From NCBI RefSeq assembly GCF_004762095.1, contig NZ_SIJH01000006.1, positions 124,001 through 188,000 on the forward strand: a stretch of DNA of 64,000 bases, read 5' to 3'. A program made the position numbers and the translations under genes. Positions 29,535 to 32,402 of this stretch are shown piece after piece. The number at the start of each line of letters is the position of its first letter. Position 1 is the first letter of the stretch. Source of the stretch: Tabrizicola caldifontis. Its GTDB lineage: Bacteria > Pseudomonadota > Alphaproteobacteria > Rhodobacterales > Rhodobacteraceae. The notes beneath the pieces are model-generated. The model was not told the origin of the DNA. It made no database searches and saw only the letters and a list, made by a program, of their open reading frames with translations.

Positions 29535-30308
29535 TTACAACGCCGTCCAGCCGCCATCGACGGAAATCGTCGTTCCGGTGATCTGATCCGCCGCCGGGCT
29601 GCACAGAAAGACAGCCGTACCACCAATCTGTTCGACCGTGGCGAACTGGCGCGAGGGCTGGCGTTGCAGCATGACCTCACGGATCACCGTTTCGCGGTCC
29701 ATCCTGTGGACCTTCATCTGTTCCGGGATCTGCGCCTCGACCAGGGGCGTCAGTACATAGCCGGGGCAGATCGCGTTGCAGGTGATGCCTTGGCCGGCAA
29801 CCTCCAGCGCAACGGTTTTGGTCAGTCCGACGACACCGTGCTTGGCGGCGACATAGGCCGACTTGAAGGGGCTGGCGGTCAGACCGTGGGCACTGGCAAT
29901 GTTCACGATCCGGCCCCACCCCCGTTCTTTCATCCCCGGCAGGGCAGCGGCGGTGGCATGAAAGGCGGAACTGAGGTCGATCGCCAGGATCGCATCCCAT
30001 TTTTCGACCGGGAACTCCTCGATCGGGCTGACGAACTGGATCCCGGCGTTGTTCACCAGGATGTCGCACCCACCGGCCTTTTCAACCAGGGCCCGGCATT
30101 CGGCCCCCTTTGACATGTCGGCCGCGATGTAACGCGCCGTCACACCGTGCCGGGCGCCCAGATCGCTGGCAAGCTCATGGTCCTCGGCGCGGTCGGTGAA
30201 GCTGTTCAGAACCACGTCGGCCCCAGCCGCCGCCAACGATTCTGCCACACCCAGACCGATTCCCGAATTCGATCCGGTGACGATGGCCCGCTTGCCCTTC
30301 AGCGTCAT
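29535..30308 (-). CDS. bdhA: D-3-hydroxybutyrate dehydrogenase (SDR)
   Basis: A 257-residue short-chain dehydrogenase that oxidises 3-hydroxybutyrate to acetoacetate with NAD, part of PHB and ketone-body use. The Rossmann motif is GSNSGIGLG, the catalytic Tyr-Lys lies in SAYVAAKHG, and the subgroup-specific blocks CNAICPGYVLTPLVEAQIP and TISVDGGWTAL are those of BdhA rather than generic SDRs. The ribosome site GGGAGAG is good. Upstream on the same strand is a promoter followed by a terminator (30383-30492), so expression may depend on read-through or on a separate start. Confidence 0.92.
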   Translation of the reverse strand: MTLKGKRAIVTGSNSGIGLGVAESLAAAGADVVLNSFTDRAEDHELASDLGARHGVTARYIAADMSKGAECRALVEKAGGCDILVNNAGIQFVSPIEEFPVEKWDAILAIDLSSAFHATAAALPGMKERGWGRIVNIASAHGLTASPFKSAYVAAKHGVVGLTKTVALEVAGQGITCNAICPGYVLTPLVEAQIPEQMKVHRMDRETVIREVMLQRQPSRQFATVEQIGGTAVFLCSPAADQITGTTISVDGGWTAL

Positions 30309-30382: not shown

Positions 30383-30409
30383 AAAAAAACGCCGGCGCGA
30401 GGCCGGCGT
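30383..30409 (-). terminator. Strong rho-independent terminator upstream of bdhA
   Basis: On the minus strand an 8-bp perfect stem, ACGCCGGC with GCCGGCGT (30389-30396 and 30402-30409), has a 5-nt loop and ends in a run of seven T. No annotated gene ends here, so it must terminate the short transcript described at 30383-30457. Confidence 0.85.
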
Positions 30410-30457
30410 CAAGTCTTTGAGGCAGGTTTCATACAGGCAAGAAACCTATCGAGCAGT
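30383..30457 (-). ncRNA. Candidate small RNA (about 75 nt) or bdhA attenuator leader
   Basis: A promoter (30464-30492) and a strong terminator frame a transcript starting near 30457. Its 5' part forms a 7-bp hairpin (AGGTTTC with GAAACCT, at 30447-30441 and 30430-30424). A single-stranded stretch (GCCTCAAAGACTTG) follows, then the terminator. This hairpin, linker, terminator layout is usual for trans-acting sRNAs. A 7-codon frame, MKPASKT (30432-30409), ends inside the terminator stem, so an attenuation leader for bdhA is an alternative. I do not recognise it as a named RNA family. Confidence 0.55.
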
Positions 30458-30463
30458 AACTTC

Positions 30464-30492
30464 CTTATAGTCGTCTCTTTGCCGATGGCCAA
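30464..30492 (-). promoter_or_regulatory. Promoter of the candidate small RNA / bdhA leader
   Basis: On the minus strand TTGGCC (30492-30487) and TATAAG (30469-30464) are exactly 17 bp apart. The -10 matches 5 of 6 consensus bases, the best-looking promoter in the window. Confidence 0.6.
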
Positions 30493-30548
30493 GCTAAAAG
30501 TTTGAATTGGCTGACGGACAAGCTTAGGCTCGGCGACCGGAACGACCT

Positions 30549-32402
30549 ATGAACAGGGACCCCAGAATGTTGCGCGACCTAGCCGCTGCCGTGATCCGTC
30601 TTGCCCTGCCGCTGGCCCTTGCCGCAAGCGCGACACTGGCGCATGCCGAACCGATGCATGGCATAGCTATGTATGGCATAGCTATGTATGGCGACCCCGC
30701 ACTTCCCCCGGATTTTGTGTCCCTGCCCCAAGCCAACCCTGATGCCCCCAAGGGCGGTCAGATCACCATGGCGGTGAACGGCAGCTTCGACACGCTGAAC
30801 CCCTTCATTACCGCGGGCAGCCCGGCCGAGGGTGTCGCGCCCCTGACATTCGAGACGCTGATGGCGCGAAGCTTCGACGAACCCTTTACCCTGTACGGCC
30901 TTCTGGCCGAATCGGTCGAGACTGACGATGCCCGGACCTACGTGGAATTTACCTTGCGTGAAGAGGCGCGATTCGCCGACGGCAGCCCTGTGACGGTCGA
31001 GGACGTGCTCTGGTCTTACGAGACGCTGGGCACGCTGGGCCATCCGCGATACCATGGTGCATGGAAGAAGGTCGCAAGCGCAGAAGCGACCGGCCCGCGC
31101 ACGGTGCGCTTCACCTTCAACACCGAAGACCGCGAACTTCCGCTGATCCTGGGCCTTCGTCCGATCCTGAAGAAGGCGGATTTCGACGGCAAGGATTTCG
31201 AGGCAACGACGCTGGACCGGCTGACCGGGTCGGGGCCATATGTCGTCGATCGCGTCGATCCCGGCGTGCAGATCACCTTCCGGCGCAACCCCGACTGGTG
31301 GGGAAAGGATCTGCCCATAAACCGCGGCCAGTGGAACTTTGATACGATCCGCTTCGACTATTTCGCCAACCCTGTCGCGGTCTTCGAATCGGTCAAATCC
31401 GGCGCGATCACTGCCTATCGCGAGGACAACCTTGCCCGCTGGGCCAGCCGCTACGACTTTCCGGCCATCACCAGCGGAGAGATGGTGAAGCTCGAGGTGC
31501 CGCACGACCGGCCCTCGGGGATCATCGGTTTCGTCATGAATACGCGCCGACCGCAGTTTGCCGACTGGCGCGTGCGCGAGGCGATGATCGAGATGTTCAA
31601 CTTCGACTTCATCAACCGCACGATCACCGGCGGCGCCGCGCCAAGGATCACCTCCTACTTCTCGAACAGCCCGTTCGCGATGGTTCCCGGCGCCCCGGCC
31701 GAAGGACGGGTGCTTGAACTGCTTGAACCATTCCGCGCCGATCTTCTGCCCGGCACGATCGAAGGCTACGCCCTGCCGGCCAGTGACGGAACCGAACGCA
31801 ACCGCGCCGGCCTGCGCCGCGCGCTGGCGCTTCTGGAAGAGGCCGGATGGACCATCGCCGACGACGGCCTTCTGAAAAACGCCGCCGGCCGGCCCTTCAC
31901 CTTCGAAATCCTGCTGACCATCGGCCAGGACGAGGCTGCCAGCATCGCCGCGATCTATGTCGAGGCGCTGAAGGACATCGGCGTTACCGCCACGGTTTCC
32001 ATGCTGGACAGCGCGCAGATGAAGACGCGCACCGACACCTTCGACTTCGACATGACCTACATGATCCGCACCATGTCGCTGTCACCGGGCAACGAACAGA
32101 ACCTCTACTGGTCATCGGAGGCGGCCGATACCGAGGGCTCGCGCAACTGGATGGGGGTGAAATCGCCCGCCATCGACGCGGTGATCGGCGCGATCCTGTC
32201 CGCCCGCAGCCAGGAAGAGGCCGCGGCCGCCGCCCAGGCGCTGGACCGGCTGCTGACTGCCGGGCGCTATGTGGTGCCCTTCTGGTATTCCGACCGCAAC
32301 CTGATCGTCCACCGAAAGGAACTGAAGCAGCCTGAAAGGGTGCAGCTTTACGGCGACTGGGGCTACTCCTATCTTCCCGCCCTGTGGTGGTATGAGGAAT
32401 GA
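30549..32402 (+). CDS. Periplasmic peptide/solute-binding protein (SBP family 5, YejA-like)
   Basis: A 617-residue exported binding protein. A signal peptide (LALPLALAASATLAHA) is followed by the SBP_bac_5 domain with DAPKGGQITMAVNGSFDTLNPF near its start and YVVPFWYSDRNLIVHRKELKQ near the end, features of YejA-type oligopeptide-binding proteins. An internal ATG at 30567 follows AGGGACCCCAGA and may be the true start, giving 611 residues. No permease or ATPase gene is adjacent. A perfect 15-bp tandem duplication (30660-30689) repeats five residues just after the signal peptide. Confidence 0.88.
   Translation: MNRDPRMLRDLAAAVIRLALPLALAASATLAHAEPMHGIAMYGIAMYGDPALPPDFVSLPQANPDAPKGGQITMAVNGSFDTLNPFITAGSPAEGVAPLTFETLMARSFDEPFTLYGLLAESVETDDARTYVEFTLREEARFADGSPVTVEDVLWSYETLGTLGHPRYHGAWKKVASAEATGPRTVRFTFNTEDRELPLILGLRPILKKADFDGKDFEATTLDRLTGSGPYVVDRVDPGVQITFRRNPDWWGKDLPINRGQWNFDTIRFDYFANPVAVFESVKSGAITAYREDNLARWASRYDFPAITSGEMVKLEVPHDRPSGIIGFVMNTRRPQFADWRVREAMIEMFNFDFINRTITGGAAPRITSYFSNSPFAMVPGAPAEGRVLELLEPFRADLLPGTIEGYALPASDGTERNRAGLRRALALLEEAGWTIADDGLLKNAAGRPFTFEILLTIGQDEAASIAAIYVEALKDIGVTATVSMLDSAQMKTRTDTFDFDMTYMIRTMSLSPGNEQNLYWSSEAADTEGSRNWMGVKSPAIDAVIGAILSARSQEEAAAAAQALDRLLTAGRYVVPFWYSDRNLIVHRKELKQPERVQLYGDWGYSYLPALWWYEE
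30660..30689. repeat. Perfect 15-bp tandem duplication in a binding-protein gene
   Basis: GGCATAGCTATGTAT occurs twice in a row, duplicating the residues GIAMY just after the signal peptide cleavage site. Because 15 is a multiple of three the frame is kept. It is AT-richer than its surroundings. Confidence 0.85.

Follow-up and report, generated by a model that had tools for sequence, protein, structure and literature searches.

A short transcription unit between bdhA and a divergent transporter gene

The window analysed here is a stretch of 64,000 nucleotides from the genome of Tabrizicola caldifontis, a member of the family Rhodobacteraceae. Its minus strand carries, between bdhA and a divergent gene for an ABC-transporter substrate-binding protein, a compact unit consisting of a promoter, a hairpin, a linker and an intrinsic terminator. 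When the minus strand was read and recounted, all four parts were located where the original prediction had put them, and the predicted transcript, running from C30456 to T30383, came to 74 nt where about 75 nt had been proposed. The nearest upstream gene (30549-32402) is oppositely oriented, so that, again as predicted, no gene on the minus strand ends at the terminator. The features are listed below by position in the window, with promoter elements counted in 93 of the 94 extracted loci (one was left out for its short flank).

29535..30308, minus strand: bdhA, 3-hydroxybutyrate dehydrogenase (TIGR01963, 367.8 bits), the next gene downstream and outside the unit; adjacent to the RNA at 73 of the 94 loci
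30383..30456, minus strand: small RNA gene of about 74 nt; start placed at C30456 by its distance from the promoter, A30457 being possible
30383..30410, minus strand: intrinsic terminator, GC stem (30410-30388, 9 pairs) followed by seven T (30389-30383); the stem covaries
30423-30411, minus strand: linker
30424..30447, minus strand: 5' hairpin of 7 bp, AGGTTTC (30447-30441) with GAAACCT (30430-30424), enclosing the 10-nt loop TTGCCTGTAT (30440-30431); 6 of 7 pairs invariant among 61 distinct sequences
30428..30440, minus strand: TTGCCTGTATGAA, by sequence complementarity the putative main block for pairing with the mraZ (dcw) leader in the same genome
30450..30456, minus strand: CTGCTCG, the putative second block for pairing, at the 5' end of the RNA; complement CGAGCAG in the leaders of the same genome and of R. 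sphaeroides
30464..30469, minus strand: -10 element TATAAG; T-13 in 87, A-12 in 89 and C-14 in 40 of 93 loci
30487..30492, minus strand: -35 element TTGGCC, with CTTG conserved; 79 of 93 loci have TTG at -36..-34
30496..30504, minus strand: element CAAACTTTT, adjoining the -35 element on its upstream side; conserved in 65 of 93 loci
30549..32402, plus strand: divergent gene for an ABC-transporter substrate-binding protein, outside the unit; oriented divergently next to the RNA at 87 of the 94 loci

Within the substrate-binding protein gene, positions 30660-30690 hold an in-frame 15-bp tandem duplication, such that IAMYG occurs twice; in the Cereibacter johrii relative, this segment is present in a single copy.

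Taken alone, the pattern of promoter and terminator is a weak signal. A sigma-70 scan passed over the promoter of the unit, and terminator-like sites number 2 in 9 kb versus a mean of 5.5 in shuffled sequences. The RNA folds better than its own shuffles (z -4.1, 0 of 200 as good). At gathering score, Rfam 15 reported nothing but one tRNA in the window; accordingly, an annotation relying on Rfam 15 would miss the gene here. We consider the unit real because it is conserved family-wide; the scans by themselves gave no support.

Conservation across the Rhodobacteraceae

With a 121-nt query, the unit was recovered in 289 of the 295 sampled genomes of the family, and in 258 of the 260 in the good-quality subset; the six genomes without a match are 71-92% complete. 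In a separate sample, matches were obtained in 35 of 37 genomes of the family and in 0 of 24 genomes from other families. In a class-wide sample, a covariance model (R1) matched 7 of 385 genomes; the five strong matches all fall in the same family, and the other two, which are weak (E 1.2e-4 and 8.8e-4), do not show the core. This core comprises the first 41 nt of the RNA, ACTGCTCGATAGGTTTCTTGCCTGTATGAAACCTGCCTCAA, and recurs unchanged in 83 of the 94 extracted loci, 30 of which belong to the genus of the window, as well as in 20 of the 30 weakest family matches, which we picked by E-value from the 295-genome search.

Downstream of the core, the sequence drifts and the terminator stem still pairs. 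Both helices together have 98.7% of their cells paired, and the terminator stem contains 61 cells changed on both sides versus 17 in shuffles. Less striking is that five pairs have such a two-sided change, since 49 of 500 shuffles reach as many. The 5' hairpin is almost invariant and hence uninformative for or against pairing there. One outcome that the original prediction had named as counting against it, flanks conserved and neither stem kept, is not what the comparison returned, and the unit survives this comparison.

Gene order can also be retained, as in Cereibacter johrii, where bdhA, the small RNA and the divergent substrate-binding protein gene follow one another in the same way. Additional matches within single genomes are of several kinds. 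One further full match lies at a contig end (L101 in G236), and the others are antisense matches to the dcw leader (L097, L098 and L115) or chance-like. Separately, genome G340 contains a decayed second copy of the small RNA (L102, G340:C15:38103-38172) approximately 1.7 kb from the intact one.

A putative promoter of the RpoH type

The -35 and -10 elements, TTGGCC and TATAAG, are separated by a spacer of 17 bp. Transcription starting at C30456 would put TTG at -36..-34 and C, T and A at -14, -13 and -12, respectively. According to the accessible text of a study of RpoHI and RpoHII promoters, TTG is common to both classes, C-14 and T-13 are over-represented among RpoHII promoters, and A-12 is highly informative (PMC3441632). 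The combination of TTG with T-13 and A-12 at the RpoH-type distance was found in 75 of 93 loci versus 9 of 18800 random positions from the same loci, and C-14 in just 40 of 93 loci. Judged by sequence, the promoter thus appears to fit the published RpoHI/RpoHII pattern. The conserved element CAAACTTTT is perhaps an UP element or the site of a regulator.

Complementarity to the leader of the mraZ (dcw) operon

In the genome of the window and in G106, the small RNA and the mraZ leader share two complementary blocks, TGCCTGTATGAA versus TTCATACAGGCA and CTGCTCG versus CGAGCAG; within the window, the TTGCCTGTATGAA block is the only 12-mer antisense to the leader. The two-block leader pattern occurs in 135 of the 295 family genomes, and the same pattern read backward in 0. 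One of the 135 pattern matches (in G281) is the small RNA locus itself rather than a leader. Among the 30 pattern loci returned out of the 135, mraZ lies 162-270 nt downstream in all 30.

For a closer comparison, a set of 73 leaders was used, of which 34 come from pattern loci, small RNA matches or the window's own genome, and 39 from other genomes. The latter derive from 40 added genomes, 39 of which have no match to the double pattern; 39 leaders were usable. One truncated leader (G072) and one locus without mraZ (L213) were left out. Pairing was scored as the longest gapless run, ignoring accessibility. By this measure, 63 of the 73 leaders, including 30 of the 39 added ones, beat all 20 of their own dinucleotide shuffles; the run is at least 12 nt long in 64 leaders and at least 16 nt in 45, and it falls within nt 17-37 of the small RNA in 66. 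When one threshold is applied throughout, the number of leaders out of 73 that pass is 63 for the core, 2 for SorX, 1 for SorY, 1 for the reversed core, 0 for its reverse complement and 0-1 for each of five scrambles.

The ten leaders that fail to beat all of their shuffles include that of R. sphaeroides, which has a 12-nt run, and pairing is weak in G084, G138, G157, G063 and G069. Given that the core is frozen, co-variation between the small RNA and the leader is uninformative in most genomes, and ranking a genome's own small RNA against those of other genomes mostly gave ties. The one clear case is G317, whose leader has a 22-nt match that includes the altered linker of this very lineage and is better than that to any of 30 other small RNAs; G138 is a weak case. 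For the G157 leader, by contrast, a G-U-rich run lets the small RNA of another genome reach a much higher score.

Six leaders upstream of mraZ (L182, L190, L191, L205, L207 and L210) have their best pairing at the arm and linker of the small RNA (CCTGCCTCAA...) rather than at the loop, as if the predicted contact had shifted along the small RNA in these few lineages.

A terminator scan of the dcw leader in the genome of the window found none. Its predicted fold does contain a long stem with four T after it, but this fold is little better than those of shuffled sequences (z of -1.95, 8 of 200 shuffles as good).

The R. sphaeroides leader and the mapped cleavage site

The leader match can be related to published work on R. 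sphaeroides through the coordinates of two small RNAs. The available text of PMC6238624 gives the SorX 5' end as 2,598,224 and the SorY start as 1,632,642, and in G106 the SorX and SorY models lie at 2,598,225 and 1,632,645, in agreement with the coordinates of R. sphaeroides 2.4.1; G106 can therefore be read as this strain. The same source maps at 694,720 the RNase E cut that yields the 130-nt UpsM product (PMC6238624). In R. sphaeroides 2.4.1, the leader blocks are located at 694,695-694,706 and up to 694,748, thus flanking the 694,720 cut. The accessible part of another report describes a long mraZ leader as typical of the Rhodobacteraceae and concludes that a partner RNA, transcribed from an RpoHI/RpoHII promoter, is very likely required for the cleavage of UpsM (PMC5089854). 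The R. sphaeroides copy of the present small RNA is found at approximately 1,444.0 kb on the minus strand of chromosome 1; counted in the same manner and with its run of eight T included, it measures 75 nt.

Relationship to known small RNAs and alternative explanations

The original prediction had left open whether the unit encodes a small RNA or an attenuator of bdhA. The small-RNA half of this proposal has good support in the conserved promoter and RNA, the covarying terminator and the antisense partner, likewise conserved, at another place in the genome; the attenuator half lacks such support. A leader-peptide mechanism, in which translation of MKPASKT would open the terminator and let transcription proceed into bdhA, draws on the frame ATG-AAA-CCT-GCC-TCA-AAG-ACT-TGA, which is indeed present and whose stop codon lies at the base of the terminator stem, and on bdhA, which 73 of the 94 loci have as their next gene in the same orientation. 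However, bdhA was not found in the downstream flank (857-1503 nt) of 21 of the 94 loci that keep the RNA, and the frame is not kept in 40 of the 94, running to at least 16 codons in 36 and lacking the ATGAAACC start in 4. In the other 54, the frame from the ATG closes within 11 codons, and MKPASKT itself is over-counted because 30 of the 94 loci come from the genus of the window. Moreover, the ATG is located inside the hairpin with no evident Shine-Dalgarno sequence before it, and the extreme conservation sits in the nucleotide sequence rather than in the downstream gene. Attenuation of bdhA is thus very improbable, with read-through into bdhA possible as a side effect.

Membership in SorX or mmgR/suhB is less credible still. 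The RNA shares with SorX (RF02784) a two-stem architecture, a GC terminator and the bacterial family, and with mmgR/suhB (RF00519) the two stems and a similar length, and both models produced matches below threshold. Yet the SorX score of 21.2 bits compares with a cut-off of 46.6, the RNA lacks the CCUCCC motif, and the genome of the window has a SorX match of 75.1 bits elsewhere (G000:C9); the mmgR/suhB score is 20.2 bits versus a cut-off of 41, and the core is not shared. We therefore reject both assignments. As an aside, SorX exceeds its Rfam cut-off in 232 of the 295 family genomes, and SorY in 1, with a weaker match in 279; the SorY cut-off looks as though it had been set for one species.

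With considerably more confidence, we regard the RNA as probably the orthologue of StsR from R. sphaeroides. As far as the accessible portions of the literature go, StsR is a 72-nt RNA under RpoHI/RpoHII control that is induced in stationary phase, binds UpsM and the dcw leader and promotes RNase E cleavage (PMC8307010, PMC11354728, PMC8625941); it is also reported to bind Hfq and has a further published target in the rpoE mRNA, just after the start codon (PMC8307010). The present RNA resembles it in length (74 nt here and 75 nt for the R. sphaeroides copy versus the published 72 nt), in having its own terminator and, in 75 of 93 loci, a putative RpoH-type promoter, and in the predicted complementarity, on either side of the mapped RNase E site, to the dcw leader and UpsM. 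For rpoE, the duplex with the small RNA in the genome of the window gave z values of -2.0 and -1.2; the stretches of the R. sphaeroides genome that were examined yielded no rpoE, and a search of G106 for ChrR returned nothing.

What sets the RNA apart from StsR is the old name of the latter, RSs0827, which suggests a different position on the chromosome. Provided that the RSs numbers count genes in order, RSs0827 would lie near 853 kb and the present RNA, at approximately 1,444.0 kb, near number 1367. The ordinal rule is our own reading of UpsM as RSs0682 near 694.6 kb and of RSs1624 at 1,724.5 kb, and RSs0019 is located on chromosome 2. We take SorX to be RSs2461, SorY to be RSs1543 and CcsR to be RSs0680a-d, and assume that RSs1368 exists as a number. 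This discrepancy is an argument for a second RpoH-dependent small RNA acting on the same dcw leader, with StsR encoded elsewhere, a reading that we consider rather unlikely. It gains from a terminated intergenic stretch on R. sphaeroides chromosome 1 near 858.08 kb (L225), which contains TTCACTGTCCC, 11 nt antisense to UpsM nt 13-23. However, this stretch has no RpoH-type promoter, and 11-nt matches to UpsM are frequent by chance in such GC-rich DNA; the stretch may be the 3' end of a gene, a chance match or StsR itself. In the stretches scanned (chromosome 1, 795-914, 1430-1448 and 2556-2600 kb; chromosome 2, 8-40 and 860-943 kb), the present RNA is the only terminator combining an RpoH-type pattern at small-RNA distance with a 12-nt UpsM run, and both the length and the regulation of StsR, as given in the available text on it, match. 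No position for StsR emerged from the open-access literature on RSP_0824 to RSP_0831, RSs1367 to RSs1371 and RSs1386. RSP_0829 is named lactate dehydrogenase in the accessible part of one source (PMC13027526), and inspection by eye near the R. sphaeroides copy of the small RNA revealed no lactate dehydrogenase gene.

Should StsR indeed be a separate RNA, an RpoH-dependent small RNA other than StsR would govern the dcw leader as an ancestral stress brake built of two co-evolving RNAs, with the pairing shifting between loop, arm and linker in some lineages and StsR forming a second, separate input; we put this forward as a speculative scenario, and an unlikely one. A further possibility, doubtful but compatible with our preferred interpretation, is that the RNA has broad targets, the dcw leader being one of many. 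The frozen block of 41 nt exceeds the pairing block, and StsR is reported, in the text accessible to us, to alter many transcripts and to act on rpoE; on the other hand, the leader match recurs throughout the family, its distance from mraZ varying little, and such constancy would be surprising in a minor target.

A proposed stress-responsive link to cell division

The interpretation that we favour, and consider highly probable, is that the unit encodes a trans-acting small RNA that acts on the dcw leader and has its own RpoH-type promoter and intrinsic terminator. In the proposed mechanism, the promoter would, under stress and in stationary phase, drive synthesis of the ~74-nt RNA, which would pair with the mraZ/dcw leader, in R. 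sphaeroides also the source of UpsM. Pairing may refold the leader such that RNase E cuts between the two blocks, and cleavage of the leader would lower dcw expression and slow down division under stress. By extension, in T. caldifontis the RNA would be expressed, bind Hfq and promote this cleavage.

If this is correct, the link from a stress sigma factor through a small RNA to the cell-division operon, known from one species, would be old and nearly universal in the family. Furthermore, the sequences of the small RNA and the leader together predict the pairing for each genus, so that the mechanism would be testable far from R. sphaeroides.
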